DNA of 64,000 nucleotides from Hydrogenophaga sp. (GTDB lineage Bacteria > Pseudomonadota > Gammaproteobacteria > Burkholderiales > Burkholderiaceae_C). How positions within the stretch are numbered: the stretch's first letter is position 1; the number at the start of each line of letters is the position of its first letter. A program made the position numbers and the translations under genes. The notes under the pieces are model-generated. The model was not told where the DNA came from and did not search any database. It saw only the letters and a list, made by a program, of their open reading frames with translations. The stretch is from positions 1 through 64,000 of the forward strand of contig JACVCO010000001.1 of the NCBI GenBank assembly GCA_016741995.1, given 5' to 3'. Shown here in pieces: positions 37,199-49,510 of the stretch.

Positions 37199-39145
37199 TC
37201 AGGCCACTAATTCGACCGGCCCGCTCGCGGCCGCGTCGGCGGGCTCGCGGCCTTGCAGGCGCTGCAAGGTGTCGTTCAAGGTGACGAGCAGGCCGTCGAA
37301 GGCTTCTTGCGCGAGTTCGCGGTAGCGCTGCGAGCCGCGCAGGTAGTCGGCGAGTTCTTCGGACGCTTCCCAGCGGGTGAGCACGTCGTCGAAGCCCTGC
37401 ATGCGTTCTTCCATGAGGTACTGCAGGCGGTCGACGCGGGCGCGCAGGGTGTCGTCTTCGCGGCCGAGGCGGGTGAGGAATTCGGGGCCGCGGTGGGCCT
37501 GGCTGGCGTGGCGGGCGCTGCTGGCCACCTGCGCCTGCCCGGCCTTCACCTGCTCGATGACCTGCTGCAGGCGGGTGGCGATCTCGCGCTGGCGCACGCC
37601 GCTGCGGCTGGTGCCGGCGGGCGGTGCCACGGTGGGCAGCGGCGGCAGGGTCAGCACGTGCTGCTGCAGCATGTCGTGCAGCGGCAGCTGTTCGAAGCCG
37701 GCAATGGACGCGCCGCCTTCGGTGCAGTTGAAGAGGCGCAGTTCGGGGTTGGCCGCGCGGTAGGTAGCGGCCAGGCCCTGGAACTGGTGGTGGAAGAGGA
37801 AGTAGTCGGGCGCGGTCTGCACGGTGCCCCCGTGGTAGCCGGGCAGTTCGCGCAGCACCTGGGGCGCGGGCGCGTCGCGGCCGGCACCGGCGGCGTAGCG
37901 CTGGCCATCGGCGGCGAAGGCCAGGTCCTGCCCCACCAGCGCGATGGGCGAGCAGCCCCAGTGGTGCGCCAGGCGCAGGCAGGTGACGGCCACCGAACCG
38001 GCGCTCAGCGCGGGCCAGGGCGAGCTCATGGCGCGCGCCAGCATCAGGTCCAGCGGGCCACCGGCGTCGAAGAAGTAGGTGCGGGCCTGCGCGAAGCGGC
38101 GCAGCACGTTGGCGTGGGCCGAGTTGCTGGCGATCAGGTCGGGCAGCCAGGCGTCGGGGATGTCGCCGATGAAATCGCGCGGCGCGCTGGCGTGATCGTG
38201 CGAGTCGAGCACCACCGCGAAATCGGGCCGGATGCCTTCGCGGTGCAGGCGCTTGAGCGTCTGCAGCGGGGCGATGAGCAGCGCTCGGCCCTGGGCGGCC
38301 TTGAGCACGCCGATGTTCTTCGACAGCGAGGGGCCGGGCGAGACGACGATGGCCGGGCGGCCGGCGAAGCGCTGGCCGAGGGCGTTGATGTCGGGTGCGG
38401 TGGCGGCGGCGGGCAGGTTGTCCAGGCCCTGGCGCAGCCACATGGCGGCGTGTTTGCCCCAGGTGATCCAGCTCATGCGCAGGTTCTGGATGGCGGTGCC
38501 CACGAAGGCGTCCATGCGCTGCACGGCCTCGGGTTCGAGCAGGCCGTCGGCCACGTCGATGCCCACGTGGCGCTTGGGCAGCAGGCGCTTGAAGCTGTTG
38601 AGGTGCGTGGTGAGGGTCTGTTCGTCGTCGACGCGCACGCAGCCCGGGGGCAGCGGCGTTTCCGCCGCGGGGCCCGCCAGCAGGCTGCGGCGCTGGCCGC
38701 GCGCCTCGATCGCGGCGGCCAGTTCGGGGGGCATGCGCCCGTGCACCAGCAGCACGTCGCATTCGAAGTTCCAGCGCAGCGGCAGCAGGTGGTCCAGCAC
38801 GGCGTGCCAGCCCTGTTCGTCCAGCGCTTCGCCGCTGCCGGCGGCCTGTTCGAAGCACTCCTTCGTCCAGAGCTTCACCACCTCTTCGCAGGTGGCGAGC
38901 ACCTGCAGGCCGTGGAACAGGGCTTCGGCGCCTTCGGCCGAACCGGCGCGGCCGAAGCGGGCCTGCAGCTGGCGCGTGTCGCCATGGCGCAGGGTGGACC
39001 AGTGCATGCGCAGCTTGTCCACCGCGCGCCGCGCGGCGGCGTTGTCGCCCTGGCCGATGGCCTGCACGGCGGTGGCCGCGGTGGTGGCCACACGCGTCAT
39101 GTGGGCGATGAGCTGCGCGTCGGGGGCGCCGGTGGGGGTGGTCAT
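37199..39145 (-). CDS. Motility-associated factor (Maf) family flagellin glycosyltransferase
   Basis: A 648-residue protein of the Maf/DUF115 family (6-hydroxymethylpterin-pyrophosphokinase MptE-like core). The core is visible from about residue 245 to 480, with GRPAIVVSPGPSLSKNI (nucleotide-sugar loop), FAVVLDSHDHA, SGSVAVTCLRLAHHWGCSP and LVGQDLAF. In other bacteria such enzymes transfer pseudaminic or legionaminic acid to flagellin in the cytosol. It lies 4 bp after fliA as the last gene of the flhB-fliA block. No nonulosonic-acid synthesis genes are in the window. Its targets are probably the two flagellins at 50036 and 51549. Confidence 0.85.
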   Translation of the reverse strand: MTTPTGAPDAQLIAHMTRVATTAATAVQAIGQGDNAAARRAVDKLRMHWSTLRHGDTRQLQARFGRAGSAEGAEALFHGLQVLATCEEVVKLWTKECFEQAAGSGEALDEQGWHAVLDHLLPLRWNFECDVLLVHGRMPPELAAAIEARGQRRSLLAGPAAETPLPPGCVRVDDEQTLTTHLNSFKRLLPKRHVGIDVADGLLEPEAVQRMDAFVGTAIQNLRMSWITWGKHAAMWLRQGLDNLPAAATAPDINALGQRFAGRPAIVVSPGPSLSKNIGVLKAAQGRALLIAPLQTLKRLHREGIRPDFAVVLDSHDHASAPRDFIGDIPDAWLPDLIASNSAHANVLRRFAQARTYFFDAGGPLDLMLARAMSSPWPALSAGSVAVTCLRLAHHWGCSPIALVGQDLAFAADGQRYAAGAGRDAPAPQVLRELPGYHGGTVQTAPDYFLFHHQFQGLAATYRAANPELRLFNCTEGGASIAGFEQLPLHDMLQQHVLTLPPLPTVAPPAGTSRSGVRQREIATRLQQVIEQVKAGQAQVASSARHASQAHRGPEFLTRLGREDDTLRARVDRLQYLMEERMQGFDDVLTRWEASEELADYLRGSQRYRELAQEAFDGLLVTLNDTLQRLQGREPADAAASGPVELVA

Positions 39146-39149
39146 GGGC

Positions 39150-39866
39150 TCAGTGCTCGCGCAGCTTGGTGCGCAGGCGCGCGATGGACTGGCTGTGCAG
39201 CTGGCACACGCGCGATTCGGTGACGCCGAGCACGGCGGCGATTTCCTTGAGGTTCATGTCGTGCTCGTAGTACATGCTCATGATGTGCTGTTCGCGCTCG
39301 GGCAGCGTGGTGATGGCGCCCACGAGCGCCATGCGCATGCGCTGGTCCTGCAGCATGGACGACGGGTCGGCCTCGTGGTCGCCCATGTGGCGGTCGAGGA
39401 AGCTGTCTTCGTCGTCGCCGCCACCGCTGATGTCTTCCAGGTAGACGAGCTGGGTGCCGCGCACCTTGGCCAGCAGCGACTGGTAGTCGGCCAGCGTGAG
39501 GCCCATCTCGGCCGCGATCTCGCTTTCCTTGGGCGCACGGTGCAGCTTCTGCTGCAGGCGGTGCACGGCGTGTTCGATGTCCTTCTGGCTCTTGCGCGAG
39601 CCACGGCTCATCCAGTCGCCGTCGCGCAGTTCGTCGATCATCGCGCCGCGGATGCGCTGGCTGGCGAAGGTTTCGAACTGCACGCCCTGCGAGGGCTCGT
39701 AGCGCGCGATGGCTTCGGTCAGGCCGATCATGCCGACCTGGATCAGGTCGTCGATCTCGACGCTCGGGGGCAGCTTGGCGATCATGTGGTGCGCCAGGCG
39801 ACGCACCAGCGGGCTGTACTTCTTCAGCTGGTCGTCGCGTTCGAGCGTGCCTTTGGCGGTGTACAT
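39150..39866 (-). CDS. fliA: Flagellar sigma factor FliA (sigma-28)
   Basis: A 238-residue sigma factor with regions 2 (YSPLVRRLAHHMIAKLP, DLIQVGMIGLTEAIARY), 3 (ESEIAAEMGLTLADYQ) and 4 (LKEIAAVLGVTESRVCQLH). Length matches E. coli FliA (239). It directs RNA polymerase to class III promoters; matching sites stand before flgM, both flagellin genes and fliS. FlgM (31169) is its anti-sigma. It is 4 bp before maf and 2 bp after the flhG-like gene. Confidence 0.96.
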   Translation of the reverse strand: MYTAKGTLERDDQLKKYSPLVRRLAHHMIAKLPPSVEIDDLIQVGMIGLTEAIARYEPSQGVQFETFASQRIRGAMIDELRDGDWMSRGSRKSQKDIEHAVHRLQQKLHRAPKESEIAAEMGLTLADYQSLLAKVRGTQLVYLEDISGGGDDEDSFLDRHMGDHEADPSSMLQDQRMRMALVGAITTLPEREQHIMSMYYEHDMNLKEIAAVLGVTESRVCQLHSQSIARLRTKLREH

Positions 39867-39868
39867 CG

Positions 39869-40624
39869 TCAGCTCCAGAAGGGGGAGGCGGCCCCGGCCA
39901 TCAGGCCGCGAGCGGGTGAGCGAGTGGGTGAGAAGGGGGCCGTGTCGGTGCGCACCAGCGCGCCATCGGGCACGCGCCGGGCCCAGGCGTCCTGGGTCCA
40001 CACGGGCGCGCGCAGGCCGAGGTGGCGCTGGGCGGTGTCGATCACGTTGGCCAGCACCTGCGCGGGCGCGTCCAGCGGCGCGAGCACCGGGCACAGGCCG
40101 GTGCCGTGCAGCCACTTGAGCGCGCCGTAGGCGTCGATGCTGGCCTGGGGTTGTTGCAGCACCGGCACCAGCACGCGCGCGCTCAGGCCACCCAGCAGGC
40201 CGGCAAGCGCCTGCGCGGGTGCGTAGAGCAGCAGCACCACGCCGGCCGCGAACGGCGCGAACAGGCGCGAGAGCGCGGTGTCGGCACCGCCGGCGGCGGC
40301 CGTGTTCACCAGCGATTGCAGGCCTTGGGCGCCGGGCATCACGAGCCAGTCGCCACCGTCGCTGCGGGTGGCGCCGAGGTTGGCCACGCTGCCGTCGCCG
40401 AGCGCGTGCACCAGGCCACCGCTGTCGCCGCGCTCGGTGGCGCAGGCGTCGATCACGACCACGCGCTGGCCGGCGTCGGCCAGGGCCATGGCCAGGCGGC
40501 ACAGCCATTCGAAGCCGTGCGAGGGCTGGGCCGGGCTGGCCAGGGGCATGAGGGCCGGGCTGCCGTCGCGCGCCTGGAGATCCAGGCGCAGGCCGGCGGC
40601 CTGGTCGAAGCCGAACTCAAACAT
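39869..40624 (-). CDS. flhG: FlhG/FleN-like protein without a P-loop
   Basis: A 251-residue protein in the position of FlhG (FleN), the MinD-like partner of FlhF. The N-terminus MFEFGFDQAAGLR contains the DQAxxLR motif (D7-R13) that in FlhG stimulates the FlhF GTPase. The body retains a MinD-like strand (RVVVIDA) and hydrophobic strands (VVLLLYAP), but the deviant Walker A (KGGxGKT) is missing. ATP binding is therefore doubtful. The start 40624 lies within the end of flhF (8-bp overlap). An upstream ATG at 40654 is less likely. An alternative view is a fast-diverging FlhG with residual folding only. Confidence 0.78.
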   Translation of the reverse strand: MFEFGFDQAAGLRLDLQARDGSPALMPLASPAQPSHGFEWLCRLAMALADAGQRVVVIDACATERGDSGGLVHALGDGSVANLGATRSDGGDWLVMPGAQGLQSLVNTAAAGGADTALSRLFAPFAAGVVLLLYAPAQALAGLLGGLSARVLVPVLQQPQASIDAYGALKWLHGTGLCPVLAPLDAPAQVLANVIDTAQRHLGLRAPVWTQDAWARRVPDGALVRTDTAPFSPTRSPARGLMAGAASPFWS

Positions 40625-42080
40625 GCAGGCCACCGAGGTCGATGCCGCGGCCACCGGACTGGGCGAAGTAGAAGCCCATGTCGGCGCTGGCCGGGTCGAA
40701 GGCGGACTTGCCGGCCGAGCCCATGCTGAGCTTGACGAGCGAGCCCGCGTCGGCGTGGTGCCAGTCTTCGGGCACGCGCTGGCCGTTGGCCACGCCGCGC
40801 AGCGTCACGTGGTGGCGGATCAGGGTGTCGATGGCAGGGCCGAGCTTGACGGCTTCGTCCACCTTGGAGAGCACCACGCCGTGCAGCTTGTCGGCCTTGA
40901 AGGCGGAAAGCGTTTCGTCGATGGTGTCGCCCTGCGAACCGGCGTTGAGCACCAGCACCTTCTTGAGCGAGGGCATTTCCAGCACGTCGAGCATGTCCTG
41001 CACGCGCTGGTCGCGCTGGCCCAGGCCGGCGGTGTCGATGATGACCAGGCGCTTGCCCGAGAGCAGGCCCAGCATGTCCTTCAGCGCAGCGCGGTCGTGC
41101 GCCAGGTGCGCCACCACGCCGAGCATGCGGCCGAAGGCGCGCAGTTGTTCGTAGCCCGAGACGCGGTAGCTGTCGAGCGTGACCAGGCCCACGCTGCCGG
41201 GGCCGAACTGCTTGACGCACTGCGCGGCGAGCTTGGCGGCGGTGGTGGTCTTGCCCACACCGGTGGCGCCCACGAGGGCGACCACGCCGCCCTCTTCGGC
41301 CAGGCTGGCGCCGGGCTGGGCGGTGCGCAGGTTGCGCTGGATCGCGTCCATCAGCCAGCGCAGCGATTCACCGGCACCGGCGTCGGCCGGCAGGCGCTCG
41401 AGCAGGGCACGCGAGACCGCGGGCGAGTAGCCGGCGCGGATGAGCTTGTGCATCAGGCTCGACTGGATCGGGTTGCCCTTGCTGGAGCCGAGCCAGGCCA
41501 GGGTGTTGAAGCGCTCTTCGATCATGTCCTTGAGCGCGCCCAGCTCGACGGCCATGCGCTGGTCGTCCTGCTTGGCGAAGCGCGCGGGCGGCTCGGAATC
41601 CTGGAACGCGGCTTCGCGGGTGCGGATGGCCTGCGGGCGCGGCGTGGGCACGGTGGCGGGGCGCGGGTCGTTCATGCGCTGCACCGGCACCATGATGGGT
41701 TCGTCGCGCTGGTCGTGCGCGCTGGCGGCCTCGGGCTCGGCACCGCCCAGCGTTTCGCGGCGCTTGCGCAGCATGCGCTCGCGCACGTAGTCCTGGAACG
41801 AGAGCGTGCTCATGGCCATCGCTTCGGTGTCGTTGGCGACCGAGCTCTGCGTGTTGGCGAACGGCTCCTTGCGCACGGCGGGTGCGGCCTGGGCCGCGGT
41901 GGCCGCCGTGGGCTGCGTGCCTTGCGCGATGCTGGCCAGGCTTTCCTCGGCCGCCGCCATGACCTCGAAACCCTCGGTGGTCTGGCGGGTGGAGAGGATC
42001 ACGGCGCTGTCGCCGATCTGGCGGCGCGCCTTGGCCATGGCCTCGCGCGAGGTGGGGGCGATGAAGCGTTGGATGTTCAT
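40617..42080 (-). CDS. flhF: Flagellar SRP-like GTPase FlhF
   Basis: A 487-residue SRP-type GTPase that positions flagella. The N-terminal B domain starts MNIQRFIAPTSREAMAKARR and is followed by a variable region (about 70-200), then the NG domain with G1 GATGVGKTTTAAKLA, DSYRVSGYEQLRAFG, G3 DTAGLGQRDQR and a late SKVDEA. It overlaps the FlhG-like start by 8 bp. The start 42080 yields the canonical N-terminus. In polar or mixed flagellation it sets site and number with FlhG. Confidence 0.95.
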   Translation of the reverse strand: MNIQRFIAPTSREAMAKARRQIGDSAVILSTRQTTEGFEVMAAAEESLASIAQGTQPTAATAAQAAPAVRKEPFANTQSSVANDTEAMAMSTLSFQDYVRERMLRKRRETLGGAEPEAASAHDQRDEPIMVPVQRMNDPRPATVPTPRPQAIRTREAAFQDSEPPARFAKQDDQRMAVELGALKDMIEERFNTLAWLGSSKGNPIQSSLMHKLIRAGYSPAVSRALLERLPADAGAGESLRWLMDAIQRNLRTAQPGASLAEEGGVVALVGATGVGKTTTAAKLAAQCVKQFGPGSVGLVTLDSYRVSGYEQLRAFGRMLGVVAHLAHDRAALKDMLGLLSGKRLVIIDTAGLGQRDQRVQDMLDVLEMPSLKKVLVLNAGSQGDTIDETLSAFKADKLHGVVLSKVDEAVKLGPAIDTLIRHHVTLRGVANGQRVPEDWHHADAGSLVKLSMGSAGKSAFDPASADMGFYFAQSGGRGIDLGGLHV

Positions 42081-42116: not shown

Positions 42117-44192
42117 TCAGGCCGCGAGCTGGCCCAGGATCGGGCCGATGCGGATGAGGTGGGTTTCGGGGATCTCGCTGTGCGCCAGCACCTGCAGGCG
42201 CGGCGCGGCGCGGCGCAGCAGGCGCGCCATGGCGCTGCGGATGGCGTCGGGCACCAGCAGGCAGGCGGGCACGCCCTTTTCTTCCTGCTGGTTGGCGATG
42301 TCGGTGGCCGATTTGCTCAGCATCTCGGCCACACCGGGGTCCAGCGCGCCGGCGTTGGTGCCGGTCAGGGCCTGCATCAGCAGGCGCTCCAGGCCGGGTT
42401 CGATGGCGATGACCTCGAGTTCCTTCACCGCGCCGTAGATCTGCTGGACGATGGCCGGGGCCAGCGCCATGCGCACGCGGCGCGCCAGTTCGTAGGGTTC
42501 GGTGGTGTGGGCGGCGTGCTCGGCGATCGATTCGATGATGGTGCGGATGTCCCGCACGTGCACGCCTTCTTCCAGCAGCAGCTGGAGCACTTTCTGGAAG
42601 GTGGCAACCGAAACCATCTTGGGCACGACTTCTTCGATCAGCTTGGGGGCCAGGCGGGTCACGTGTTCGACCAGTTCCTGGGTCTCCGTCCGGCTCAGCA
42701 ACTTGGCCGCCTGGACTTGCATCAAGTGTGAAAGATGGGTCGCGAGCACAGTCTCGGAATCAACCACGGTGAAACCGGCCATTTGCGCGGTTTCCTTCTG
42801 GCGCTCGTCGATCCAGTGCGCGGGCAGGCCGAAGGCCGGGTCGGTGGTGGGGGTGCCGATGAGGGGCGTGCCGGTGCCACCGGGGTCGATGGCCAGCCAC
42901 ATGCCGGGGAACACCTCGCCCTCGCCCACCACCACACCGCGCAGGGTGATGCGGTAGGCGCTGGGGCGCAGCTCCAGGTTGTCGCGCACGTGCACCGCCG
43001 GCGGCAGGAAGCCCACGTCCTGGGCGAATTTCTTGCGCACGCCCTTGATGCGGGTGAGCAGGTCGCCCTGGCGGGTCTTGTCGACCAGCGCGATCAGGCG
43101 GTAGCCGAGCTCCAGGCCGAGCAGGTCCACGGGTTGCAGGTCGTCCCAGGTGGCTTCGCCGTCGTTGGCGGGGCCGGTGGGTGCTTCGCTGGCCGCGGCC
43201 TTGGGTGCCAGTTCCTGCTGGTGGCGCCACCAGGCCAGGCCACCCAGCAGCGCGGCGAACACCAGGAAGAAGATGTGCGGCATGCCGGGGATGATCCCGA
43301 GCAGGAACAGCACGCCGGCGGCGATGGCCAGCACGCGCCAGGAGAAGAACATCTGGCGCGCCACCAGGGTGCCCACTTCCTCGTCCTTGCCGACACGCGA
43401 CACCACCATGGCCGAGGCCACCGAGATCAGCAGGCCAGGGATCTGCGCCACCAGCGCGTCGCCCACCGCGAGCAGGATGTAGTTATCGGCCGCCTGGCCC
43501 ACCGACAGGCCGTGCTGGCCCATGCCGATGGCGAAGCCGCCGATGATGTTGATGATCAGGATCAGGATGCCGGCGACCGCGTCGCCGCGCACGAACTTGG
43601 AGGCACCGTCCATGGAGCCGAAGAACTCGGCTTCCTCGCCCACCTCGAGGCGGCGGCGCTTGGCCTCCTTCTCGTCGATCAGGCCGGCGCCCAGGTCGGC
43701 GTCGATCGCCATCTGCTTGCCGGGCATCGCGTCCAGGGTGAAGCGGGCCGACACCTCGGCGATACGCTCCGCACCTTTGGTGATCACCACGAAGTTGATC
43801 ACCACCAGGATCACGAACACGATCAGGCCGACCGCGAAGTTGCCGCCGATGAGGAAGTGGCCGAAGGCCTCGATCACCTCGCCGGCCGCGCCCGGGCCGG
43901 TGTGGCCTTCGAGCAGCACCACGCGGGTGGAGGCCACGTTGAGCGACAGGCGCAGCAGCGTGGTGAGCAGCAGCACCGTGGGAAAGACCGAGAAATCCAG
44001 CGGGCGCTTCATGTGCGCCGCCACCATCATCACCACCAGCGCGAGCGCGATGTTCAGCGTGAAGAAGGTGTCCAGCAGCCAGGGCGGCAGCGGCAGCACC
44101 ATCATGGCGAGCACCGTCATCACGAGCATGGGCGCGGCGAGCGCCCCGGCCATGGCGCCATTGCGCTTGAGCCATTGCTGCACGAAGTTCAT
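42117..44192 (-). CDS. flhA: Flagellar type III export apparatus protein FlhA
   Basis: A 691-residue export-gate protein. About eight N-terminal membrane segments (residues 20-330) include the FHIPEP-family signature RIAEVSARFTLDAMPGKQMAID and the cytosolic acidic loop LIDEKEAKRRR. The large C-terminal cytosolic domain (about 365-691) binds chaperone-substrate complexes and includes AKLLSRTETQELVEHV. Length matches E. coli FlhA (692). Its ATG overlaps the flhB stop. Confidence 0.97.
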   Translation of the reverse strand: MNFVQQWLKRNGAMAGALAAPMLVMTVLAMMVLPLPPWLLDTFFTLNIALALVVMMVAAHMKRPLDFSVFPTVLLLTTLLRLSLNVASTRVVLLEGHTGPGAAGEVIEAFGHFLIGGNFAVGLIVFVILVVINFVVITKGAERIAEVSARFTLDAMPGKQMAIDADLGAGLIDEKEAKRRRLEVGEEAEFFGSMDGASKFVRGDAVAGILILIINIIGGFAIGMGQHGLSVGQAADNYILLAVGDALVAQIPGLLISVASAMVVSRVGKDEEVGTLVARQMFFSWRVLAIAAGVLFLLGIIPGMPHIFFLVFAALLGGLAWWRHQQELAPKAAASEAPTGPANDGEATWDDLQPVDLLGLELGYRLIALVDKTRQGDLLTRIKGVRKKFAQDVGFLPPAVHVRDNLELRPSAYRITLRGVVVGEGEVFPGMWLAIDPGGTGTPLIGTPTTDPAFGLPAHWIDERQKETAQMAGFTVVDSETVLATHLSHLMQVQAAKLLSRTETQELVEHVTRLAPKLIEEVVPKMVSVATFQKVLQLLLEEGVHVRDIRTIIESIAEHAAHTTEPYELARRVRMALAPAIVQQIYGAVKELEVIAIEPGLERLLMQALTGTNAGALDPGVAEMLSKSATDIANQQEEKGVPACLLVPDAIRSAMARLLRRAAPRLQVLAHSEIPETHLIRIGPILGQLAA

Positions 44193-45343
44193 TCTTCAGC
44201 CTCCTGCGGCTTTTTCTTGAAATGGGGGTCGAGCTCGGGCGGCACCTGCGGCTGCGGGTCGGCGGGCATCACGCCCTCGCCACGCAGCGCGGCCTTGAGC
44301 TGGTAGACCCAGGCCAGCACCTGGGCCACCGCGGTGTAGAGCGCACCGGGGATTTCCTGATCGATCTCGGCGTTGGCGTAGAGCGCACGCGCCAGCATGG
44401 GCGACTGCAGCACCGGCACGTTGTTGGCCTTGGCCACCTCGCGGATCTTGAGCGCGATGAGGTCGGAGCCCTTGGCGATCACGCGCGGCGCGGCCATGGT
44501 GGCCTCGTCGTAGCGCAGCGCCACGGCGTAGTGGGTCGGGTTCATCACCACCAGGTCGGCCTTGGGCACGGCACCGATGCTGTTGCGCTGCGCGAGTTCG
44601 CGCTGGCGCTGGCGGCGCTTGCCCTTCACGTACGGGTCGCCCTCGGCTTCCTTGTGCTCGCGCTTCACCTCGTCGTGCGACATGCGCAGCTTGTGCCGGT
44701 GCAGCGCGCGCTGGGTCGGCACGTCGATCGCGGCCACCACGCCCACCACCAGCATGAGCAGGCCCACGCCGACCATGAGCCACTGCGCGAGCTGGCTGAT
44801 GCCCGCCTCCAGCGGCCGCATGAGCAGGGTGGCGAAGGGGTGCGCGTGCGACTTGATGAACTGGGTCGCCACCAGCAGCAGCACGGCGATGATGACCACG
44901 AGCTTGCCGGTCTCGACCAGCTGCTGGCGCGAGAACAGGCGCTTGATGCCGGCCAGCGGGCTCAGGCTGGACAGCTTGGGTTCGATGGGCTTGGTGCTGA
45001 GCGCGAAAGAGCCCGAGGCCACGATGGCGGTGATCACCAGCGCGACCACCAGCAGGCCCAGCGGCAGCACGAGGATCAGGCCCTGGCTGGCGCCGTCCAC
45101 CAGGCGCTGCAGCATGAGCTCGGGCGTGCGCGCGGTGGCGTTGTCGAAGCGCATCTGCATGGCCATGGCCTCGCGCAGGCGCCCGAAACCCAGGGGAGCG
45201 AGCACGGCCAGCGACGCCAGGCCACCGCCGAGCACGGCGAGGTGGGTGAGGTCTTTGGAACGCGGTACCTGGCCGTCCTTGTGCGCCTTTTTCAGGCGCT
45301 GAGGCGTGGCTGGCAGGTTCTTGTCTTGGCTGGACGAATCCAT
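44189..45343 (-). CDS. flhB: Flagellar type III export switch protein FlhB
   Basis: A 384-residue protein with four membrane segments (about 33-53, 90-112, 145-165, 185-205). The cytosolic C-domain holds the self-cleaving NPTH motif (VVMNPTHYAVALRY), where cleavage between N and P switches export from hook to filament substrates. N-terminal ATPQRLKKAHKDGQVPRSKDL is typical. The start has no Shine-Dalgarno; a perfect hairpin (45346-45371) ends two bases before the ATG. Confidence 0.96.
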   Translation of the reverse strand: MDSSSQDKNLPATPQRLKKAHKDGQVPRSKDLTHLAVLGGGLASLAVLAPLGFGRLREAMAMQMRFDNATARTPELMLQRLVDGASQGLILVLPLGLLVVALVITAIVASGSFALSTKPIEPKLSSLSPLAGIKRLFSRQQLVETGKLVVIIAVLLLVATQFIKSHAHPFATLLMRPLEAGISQLAQWLMVGVGLLMLVVGVVAAIDVPTQRALHRHKLRMSHDEVKREHKEAEGDPYVKGKRRQRQRELAQRNSIGAVPKADLVVMNPTHYAVALRYDEATMAAPRVIAKGSDLIALKIREVAKANNVPVLQSPMLARALYANAEIDQEIPGALYTAVAQVLAWVYQLKAALRGEGVMPADPQPQVPPELDPHFKKKPQEAEE

Positions 45344-48598: not shown

Positions 48599-49138
48599 TC
48601 AGTGCAGGCGAAGGCTGTTGGCGCTGGAGCCCTTGCCGGCACGCGCCGGGGGCTGGCACAGGCCGCAGACGAAGTGGCGGGCGTTCTCGTAGGGCTCGGT
48701 GACGAAGTGGCCACTGCAGCAGGAGCACTTGGTGAGCGTGAGCATGCCGTTGTCGACGAACTTCACCAGGCGCCAGGCGCGGGTGATGGACAGCAGCGGT
48801 TCAATGGCGCTGGCGCTCATCTGCTCGCTGTAGAGGCGGAAGGCCTTGATGACGGCGTCGATCTCCTCCAGCGCGCTGGACTTGGAGAGGTATTCGTGGA
48901 TGTTGAGGAACAGCGAAGCGTGGATGTTGGGCTGCCAGGTCAGGAACCAATCCGTGGAGAACGGCAGCTGGCCCTTGGAGGGGCTCTTGCCGGCGACTTC
49001 CTTGTACAGGCGCAGCAGGCGCTCGTAGGACAGGCTGGTTTCGTACTCGAGCACCTGCAGGCGCGCGCCGAGCTGGATCAGGGCCACCGCGCGTTCGATG
49101 TCGCGCGATTCGTTGAGGATGCTTTTGCCAGCGGCCAT
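48599..49138 (-). CDS. flhC: Flagellar master regulator subunit FlhC
   Basis: A 179-residue protein that forms FlhD4C2 with FlhD and activates class II flagellar promoters. It carries the four-cysteine zinc site in CSCCSGHFV and FVCGLC near the C-terminus and the DNA-binding region before it. E. coli FlhC has 192 residues. It follows flhD after 30 bp and is closed by a strong terminator. Confidence 0.95.
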   Translation of the reverse strand: MAAGKSILNESRDIERAVALIQLGARLQVLEYETSLSYERLLRLYKEVAGKSPSKGQLPFSTDWFLTWQPNIHASLFLNIHEYLSKSSALEEIDAVIKAFRLYSEQMSASAIEPLLSITRAWRLVKFVDNGMLTLTKCSCCSGHFVTEPYENARHFVCGLCQPPARAGKGSSANSLRLH

Positions 49139-49168: not shown

Positions 49169-49510
49169 TCAGTGGGCGGTGGCGGCCATGGACTCGGCGT
49201 ACTTGCCGGCCATGAGGATGCTGGCGTGCAGCTGGGTCGTGGTGCTGTTCTCGACCTTCTTCACGTTGTGGCTGGTCAGCAGGTTCCACACCAGGTCGTC
49301 GTCCACGCGGAAGCGGCACAGCAGCATGTTGCTGGAGGCGATCTTGAGGAGCTGCGCGGTGGAGAGCATGCCGAGCAGGTCGGCGGCTTCTTCCGTCAGG
49401 CCCAGGCGGAACAGGGCTTCGGCGCGGTCCTTGCGAATCAGGTTCTGCGCCAGCATCAGGTACGTCAGGTTGGCTTCGCGGATCTCGGCCAGAAGTTGTT
49501 CGCTGTCCAT
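49169..49510 (-). CDS. flhD: Flagellar master regulator subunit FlhD
   Basis: A 113-residue protein close to the E. coli size (116-119), starting MDSEQLLAEIREANLTYLML. It contains ASSNMLLCRFRVDD with the cysteine that can form the FlhD dimer disulphide. It has AAGGAG upstream of the ATG. FlhD with FlhC is the class I activator. Its long upstream region (49511-50035) is shared with the flagellin gene. Confidence 0.95.
   Translation of the reverse strand: MDSEQLLAEIREANLTYLMLAQNLIRKDRAEALFRLGLTEEAADLLGMLSTAQLLKIASSNMLLCRFRVDDDLVWNLLTSHNVKKVENSTTTQLHASILMAGKYAESMAATAH

Follow-up and report, generated by a model that had tools for sequence, protein, structure and literature searches.

Introduction

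FlhG has been described as an ATPase whose cycle between a monomer and a membrane-bound dimer helps to set flagellar number (PMC12826062, PMC7226244), and the glutamine of its activating motif has been reported to stimulate the GTPase of FlhF (PMC12826062). For example, a change of Q8 in the FlhG of Bacillus subtilis resembles deletion of the gene; in the view of the authors, the protein serves above all to stimulate FlhF (PMC12327844). In Geobacillus FlhG, the residues K177, R207 (printed once as 277) and F215 are reported to form a FliY-binding surface, and a change of K36 abolishes ATP binding (PMC12327844). Another example is the different nucleotide dependence of two FlhG partners: FliM is reported to bind FlhG irrespective of nucleotide, and FlrA to bind it solely as a dimer with ATP (PMC11236974). 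ATP binding is taken to matter in Vibrio alginolyticus because changes in the deviant Walker A motif have been reported to render its FlhG non-functional; the D60A variant of Vibrio FlhG, which binds ATP without hydrolyzing it, is described as only slightly affected (PMC7226244). Outside the FlrA/FleQ systems, almost nothing is known about FlhG and transcription, according to a 2025 review (PMC12826062). Finally, a survey of polar flagellates counts FlhG orthologs by their place, and the excerpts available of it do not remark on the absence of a P-loop (PMC7064773). The protein described here belongs, to judge from its sequence, to this known type, of which it appears to be a P-loop-less variant; no description of such an FlhG was found in the open-access literature, a scope outside which most subscription journals fall.

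The flhG Locus of Hydrogenophaga

Hydrogenophaga carries a single polar or subpolar flagellum. The window analyzed here, a 64-kb stretch of Hydrogenophaga DNA, encodes on its minus strand a 251-residue FlhG homolog without a P-loop (39869–40624), in an open frame that starts with the ATG at 40624 and ends with the stop codon at 39871–39869. The gene order at the locus is flhA–flhF–flhG–fliA, with flhA (42117–44192; TIGR01398, 844 bits), flhF, which encodes the SRP-type GTPase partner (40617–42080; TIGR03499, 232 bits), and fliA, which encodes sigma-28 (39150–39866; NF005413, 294 bits), all on the minus strand. The stop codon of flhF ends at 40617, so that flhF and flhG overlap by 8 bases, and the ATG of fliA (39866) lies 2 bases past the end of flhG. 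Within the flhF frame, the G1 (GATGVGKT), G3 (DTAG) and G4 (SKVD) motifs are all present. The same strand carries flhB (44189–45343; PF01312) and the genes of the two master regulator subunits, flhC (48599–49138; PF05280, 276 bits) and flhD (49169–49510; PF05247, 134 bits), and motA, motB and cheZ are also encoded in the window. An earlier note, drawn from the sequence alone, had placed the gene between flhF and fliA and had counted FlhDC among the functions present; the coordinates and the profile scores of the neighbors confirm the first statement, and the finding of both FlhD and FlhC on the minus strand bears out the second. Downstream of fliA, a 648-residue protein with an MptE-like domain (PF01973) is encoded at 37199–39145, which we take to be possibly a motility accessory protein.

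Of the 36 genus genomes searched with the window protein, 29 returned the gene (the genome of the window among them), and this rules out sequencing error as the cause of the missing P-loop, which is absent from all 29 genus copies (one of them cut by a contig end). At that sensitivity, the same search gave no match in 24 genomes of other families. The protein is encoded at 43 loci of Hydrogenophaga or close relatives, and no relatives of it were found among plasmids and viral contigs. In the window's genome, which is 82% complete, a search with canonical FlhG revealed no second FlhG; it returned proteins whose sequences look like MinD, ParA and Mrp, together with weaker matches. One MinD-like protein of the genome has a canonical P-loop and is 31% identical to canonical FlhG, and the MinD of Escherichia coli has been reported to affect flagella (PMC12826062). 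Both observations would suit a situation in which another MinD/ParA protein pairs with the P-loop-less FlhG and supplies the ATPase in trans, a solution that we consider very unlikely, given that no MinD/ParA-type P-loop partner was found among the nearby flagellar genes scanned.

Relationship with FlhG Proteins

Profile comparisons with hhalign link the window protein to canonical FlhG through a series of intermediates. Alignment of 43 Hydrogenophaga-type sequences with 53 canonical FlhGs of other orders gave a probability of 96.9 (E 1.7e-10, 167 columns), which rises to 99.3 (E 1e-20) for 99 sequences of the family against the same 53 and to 100 (E 1.4e-73) for 40 sequences of the order's other families (among the matches listed) against the canonical set, and the genus profile matches the family profile at E 1.3e-35. 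A profile search of the PDB returned FleN (8pb9 and 5j1j) at E 0.003–0.004. In agreement with this, the AlphaFold model of the window FlhG (pLDDT 85.1, pTM 0.81) finds among its best Foldseek matches in the PDB the FlhG structures 4rz2 and 4rz3 (FlhG being first in rank), MinD 1hyq and the FleN structures 5j1j and 8p53, with E-values from 1.6e-5 to 6.2e-5 and TM-scores of 0.46–0.53 for the five best. Pfam and NCBIfam, for their part, give no match to the window FlhG at E ≤ 1, and on that silence the gene might be taken for one unrelated to FlhG, with a short motif that is alike by chance. This reading is refuted, because both the profile comparison and the Foldseek matches lead to FlhG, and synteny points the same way; its probability is close to nil. 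Judged from profiles and model, the gene is an FlhG homolog.

Loss of the ATP Site and of the Membrane Motif

In the alignment, the place of the deviant Walker A motif (GKGGVGKT) is occupied in the window protein by residues 31–38, PAQPSHGF (40511–40534, minus strand), and helix 34–50 of the model starts within this stretch. The pattern GxxxxGK[ST] is absent from the protein, whose sole lysine is K170. Residues 57–63 (VIDACAT; 40436–40456, minus strand) align as the remnant of the Walker A′ strand, for which an other-order FlhG has VMLMDADLG, and the position of the catalytic aspartate (the D60 position) is C61. At the positions of the signature lysine, the invariant lysine, the catalytic aspartate and the Walker B aspartate, the window protein reads A, G, C, and Y. 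Regarding the C-terminus, no helix-capable 12-mer occurs in the last 50 residues, and residues 230–247 of the model have a pLDDT below 50; the other FlhGs of the order may carry a different C-terminal amphipathic helix. To judge from these residues, the window protein is not an ATPase. Several points raised in the earlier note can be settled here. The alignment with FlhG and FleN of other orders establishes the homology and the absence of the ATP-site residues, KGGxGKT included; the strand that had been read as RVVVIDA corresponds, in the profile alignment, to the Walker A′ strand of FlhG; and the structure prediction retains a MinD-like fold, with a helix that begins inside the old P-loop stretch.

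Extent of the Loss in the Order

The survey of relatives was anchored on flhF, reading what follows this gene, because searches with the window protein (29 of 60 genomes) and with the genus profile (47 of 200) undercount. Order, family and class are used here as unnamed ranks; the name Burkholderiales comes from the NCBI lineage of Hydrogenophaga (Betaproteobacteria, Burkholderiales, Comamonadaceae), and the order may be wider. In the family, flhF was detected at E ≤ 1e-40 in 146 of 200 genomes. The 107 family loci that were read, 27 found via the P-loop-less profile and 80 via flhF, comprise 99 without KGGxGK[ST], three with KGGVGKT and five without flhG between flhF and fliA; for the 80 flhF-anchored loci alone, the figures are 72 without a P-loop, three with it and five without flhG. 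The other families of the order were represented by 40 loci, the top-scoring FlhF matches among the matches listed and not a random draw, and none of them has KGGxGK[ST]: 30 lack a GK[ST] loop as well and 10 keep it. The loop GRxGVGKT, in which the signature lysine is replaced by arginine, occurs in several families of the order, and it is possible that it represents an intermediate state of P-loop loss. Taking the order as a whole, 142 of the 147 loci have an FlhG-like frame after flhF (27 of the loci were chosen by FlhG similarity), and at one locus of the order the FlhG frame is found further downstream of flhF. Of five extra loci of the order, four yielded an FlhG, in each case lacking the motif (one of the genomes had already been counted), and at the fifth no FlhG was detected.

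The sequences compared in the trees number 150, namely 99 of the family, 40 of the other families (among the matches listed) and 11 genus representatives of the 29 genus copies. KGGxGK[ST] occurs in 0/150, and GK[ST] at the same place in 10/150. Outside the order, KGGxGK[ST] is present in 132/132 FlhGs, that is, in 70/70 of other orders (from 70 of 93 FlhF-bearing genomes, listing counts), in 22/22 more of the class and in 40/40 of other classes (from 40 of 55 genomes, listing counts). With outgroups included, the tree places the 150 FlhGs of the order in one clade (support 0.995); masking of the P-loop, Walker A′, Walker B and N- and C-terminal columns leaves this clade in place, with a support of 1.0. 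The earlier statement that the Hydrogenophaga FlhG lacks a P-loop was thus correct, but the trait is not special to one genome, being common to all 150 sampled members of the clade. The three canonical FlhGs of the family group with other orders, their next relatives being two loci of one family (support 0.88–0.90); this grouping suggests transfer, by which, on the phylogeny, they were probably acquired. The FlhF proteins of these three genomes are about equally close to both groups.

Residues Lost and Residues Kept

Across the clade, the signature lysine, the invariant lysine, the catalytic aspartate and the Walker B aspartate are kept in 2, 18, 2, and 35 of 150 sequences, respectively, as compared with K, K, D, and D in 70/70 and 40/40 outside the order. 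The full Walker B pattern is found in 2/150 versus 64/70 outside the order. The C-terminal FF motif, of the MTS-like type, follows the same division (0/150 versus 64/70; any FF, 2/150 versus 70/70), and it was relied upon because a hydrophobic-moment scan fails to separate the groups, with values of at least 0.5 in 63/70 sequences outside the order, 67/99 of the family, 33/40 of the other families (among the matches listed) and 2/11 of the genus. Some of the retained features might be read as a cryptic nucleotide site, in which the old pocket would bind a nucleotide or another ligand through different residues and dimerization would persist. The predicted structure still has the MinD-like fold, an aspartate stands in the Walker B column of the 35 sequences just mentioned, and the GK[ST] loop kept in 10/40 other-family loci (among the matches listed) makes partial ATP binding possible in those families; in 9 of these 10, however, the signature lysine is missing (GRRGVGKT, GRNGVGKT, and similar). 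In the family and the genus no such loop exists (0/110 clade sequences, one of which has a lysine there), and with the four divergent residues of the window protein this makes a cryptic site rather improbable.

The conserved positions are of a different kind. The FlhF-activating motif reads DQAAGLR at residues 7–13 of the window protein (40586–40606, minus strand), just as the earlier note had it, and its glutamine, Q8, is the most conserved column of the whole protein (149/150), followed by L12 (148/150), Y166 (147/150) and K170 (145/150). The strict form DQAxxLR is found in 57/99 family and 9/11 genus sequences, the aspartate being often H or N and the final arginine often another residue. 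Among the 150, a single sequence, from a member of the genus (L028), lacks the motif glutamine. Hydrogenophaga isolate Bet4 (L061) has NPLADRH in place of DQAxxLR. In other classes of the phylum, a mirror image of the order is seen, with KGGxGK[ST] in 40/40 and the strict DQAxxLR in 0/40. In the model, the motif glutamine opens an N-terminal helix (residues 8–20), with a pLDDT below 50 for residues 1–7 and 14–16.

The second conserved element is DAYGALK, residues 164–170 (40115–40135, minus strand), whose K170 aligns with K177 of the FliY-binding surface of Geobacillus FlhG. This correspondence was obtained from the DAYxxxK lysine of the PDB chain, numbered 185, with an offset of 8, by which the published K36 and D60 are residues 44 and 68 of the chain. 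At this C-ring docking position, the clade has lysine in 145/150 and arginine in 5/150. The F215 position is aromatic or His in 141/150 (His in the window protein), and the R207 position is not kept in the clade (N in the window protein). The GTPase motifs of the partner are also intact, since FlhF shows its G1, G3 and G4 patterns in 107/107 family loci and in 40/40 loci of other families (among the matches listed); the pattern demands G1 and G4 together and misses 4/70 outside the order. As a whole, conservation falls on the residues for FlhF stimulation and C-ring docking, and the losses affect those of the ATP site and of the membrane helix.

The median dN/dS to the window is 0.59 for flhG, 0.44 for flhF and 0.20 for fliA, a faster evolution of flhG that is as expected of partly relaxed constraint. 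Another part of the gene seems to be held by its DNA. The last two codons of flhG contain GGAG (39873–39876, minus strand), the probable ribosome-binding site of fliA: the terminal Trp-Ser (39872–39877) is written TGG AGC or TGG AGT, which places GGAG 6–9 bases upstream of the fliA ATG, and the terminal serine codon is AGY in 41/41 sequences ending in Trp-Ser (42 read) versus 277/611 other serine codons. The conservation of the C-terminal Trp-Ser in Hydrogenophaga FlhG is therefore probably a DNA constraint. A decaying remnant, dispensable as a protein in the order and serving mainly as a spacer that holds the ribosome-binding site and the translational coupling of fliA, would account for this and for a dN/dS above that of the neighbors; moreover, 5 of the 80 flhF-anchored family loci have no flhG between flhF and fliA, which are spaced there by 19–123 bases. 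Against such decay, an FlhG-like frame is kept in 75 of those 80 loci and in 40/40 of the other families (among the matches listed), the most conserved columns are the ones listed above and not the C-terminus, and flhG has a dN/dS of 0.20 when compared with the nearest relative read. We regard a mere remnant as unlikely.

FleQ and FlhDC in the Order

The search for FleQ, the homolog of FlrA, was made with PF06490 and covered 80 genomes of the order together with 63 from other orders, out of the 70 read there. Matches of at least 39 bits were obtained in 45/63 genomes of other orders (counted from listings) versus 0/80 of the order, where the best score (80 genomes, including 40 from the matches listed) was 34.1 bits. 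In the order, 46/80 genomes match at E ≤ 0.001 and 38/80 pass the 22-bit cut-off of Pfam, and for this last reason the absence of FleQ is a judgment from scores. Many of the matches below 39 bits lie in short frames, and the 22-bit cut-off is also passed in 1/14 control genomes; we judge the low-scoring matches of the order to be other regulators. Outside the order, 18/63 genomes keep the P-loop without a 39-bit FleQ match, and no clear FleQ was found in the three family genomes with canonical FlhG.

FlhC was found in 57/80 genomes of the order (40 of them from the matches listed). Within the family, it is present in 36/37 genomes without canonical FlhG and in none of the three with canonical FlhG. 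In the other families, 19/40 genomes (among the matches listed; counted from listings) lack FlhC and yet have no canonical P-loop; two of the 21 FlhC matches in these families are weak. The presence of FlhDC as the cause of P-loop loss was dropped, because other families lose the P-loop without FlhC; FlhDC, whose presence the earlier note had pointed out, does not track the loss. In sequence searches, P-loop loss goes together better with the absence of a clear FleQ than with FlhDC, though imperfectly.

A Proposed Nucleotide-Independent FlhG and its Significance

The reading that we favor, and hold to be fairly probable on sequence and model, is that FlhG of this order would be a nucleotide-independent activator of FlhF and an adaptor to the C-ring, whose ATPase would have been lost along with FleQ/FlrA. 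According to it, evolution would have removed from FlhG the MinD-type ATPase and the membrane cycle, leaving a protein that would act in the absence of nucleotide. Its N-terminal helix, which carries Q8, would insert into the FlhF-GTP dimer and speed up GTP hydrolysis, a stimulation that would need no nucleotide on FlhG. The folded core would use the DAYxxxK helix to dock on a C-ring protein (FliM/FliN), and the arrival of C-ring parts would thereby release FlhF. ATP-dependent dimerization and membrane binding by the C-terminal helix would no longer occur. The ATPase might have become dispensable because FleQ/FlrA, the partner that needs the ATP-bound dimer, had been lost, with control in the lineage passing to other master regulators, mostly FlhDC. 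We infer, then, an FlhG that would not bind ATP, would activate FlhF and would bind the C-ring, in a lineage without FleQ, together with an order of evolutionary events in which FleQ would have been lost first, before the ATPase. Several observations speak against this reading: the deviant Walker A motif is needed in Vibrio, flhG evolves faster than its neighbors and is missing from its place at five family loci, strict DQAxxLR is only partly conserved and one genus member lacks the glutamine, the R207 position has changed, the TM-scores are near 0.5, and the FleQ matches above the Pfam cut-off, like the P-loop-bearing genomes without a clear FleQ, weaken the link with FleQ. Sequence, profile, phylogeny and model all support the core of the earlier proposal, an FlhG with the FlhF-activating motif but without a MinD-type ATP cycle. 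To call it reduced to a GTPase activator seems too narrow: the activator motif is indeed kept, but the whole fold is predicted and the docking lysine or arginine is present in 150/150. The adaptor role probably remains, since the fold is predicted to be whole and the K177 position is among the most conserved.

A wider claim, to which we give a little less than an even chance, is that the FlhF–FlhG switch would be ATPase-free throughout the order, that the ATP cycle would belong to the feedback with FleQ/FlrA and that the MinD-like model of flagellar number would not be general. If true, the ATP cycle of FlhG would serve transcriptional feedback and not the placing or counting of flagella as such. 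This is of biological significance because a natural, clade-wide loss of the ATPase that spares the glutamine and the lysine allows ATP-requiring functions to be told apart from those that may be ATP-free, making the order a natural test of what the FlhG ATPase is for. In addition, naming these proteins as MinD/ParA ATPases would mislead for a large bacterial group.

Comparison with Known Systems

With the deviant Walker A ATPases of the MinD/ParA type, the window protein shares the fold, whereas it lacks their ATP-site residues and their membrane-targeting motif. The FleN/FlhG proteins of Pseudomonas, Vibrio and Shewanella (5j1j, 8p53, 8pb9) have the same fold, their C-terminal half can be aligned with it, and the gene order reported for Pseudomonas putida, flhA–flhF–fleN–fliA, is that of the window. 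FleN is the antiactivator of FleQ; the order studied here, on the other hand, gave no clear FleQ in the 80 genomes searched, and its FlhG has lost the ATP site. Compared with FlhG/YlxH of Bacillus and Geobacillus (4rz2, 4rz3), the window protein is without the deviant Walker A motif, the catalytic aspartate, the Walker B aspartate and the C-terminal membrane-helix motif. It has in common with them, nevertheless, the DQAxxLR-type N-terminus (DQAEQLR in 4rz2), the MinD-like fold and the DAYxxxK helix with the docking lysine, and its gene adjoins flhF, as has been described for flhG/ylxH (PMC12826062).
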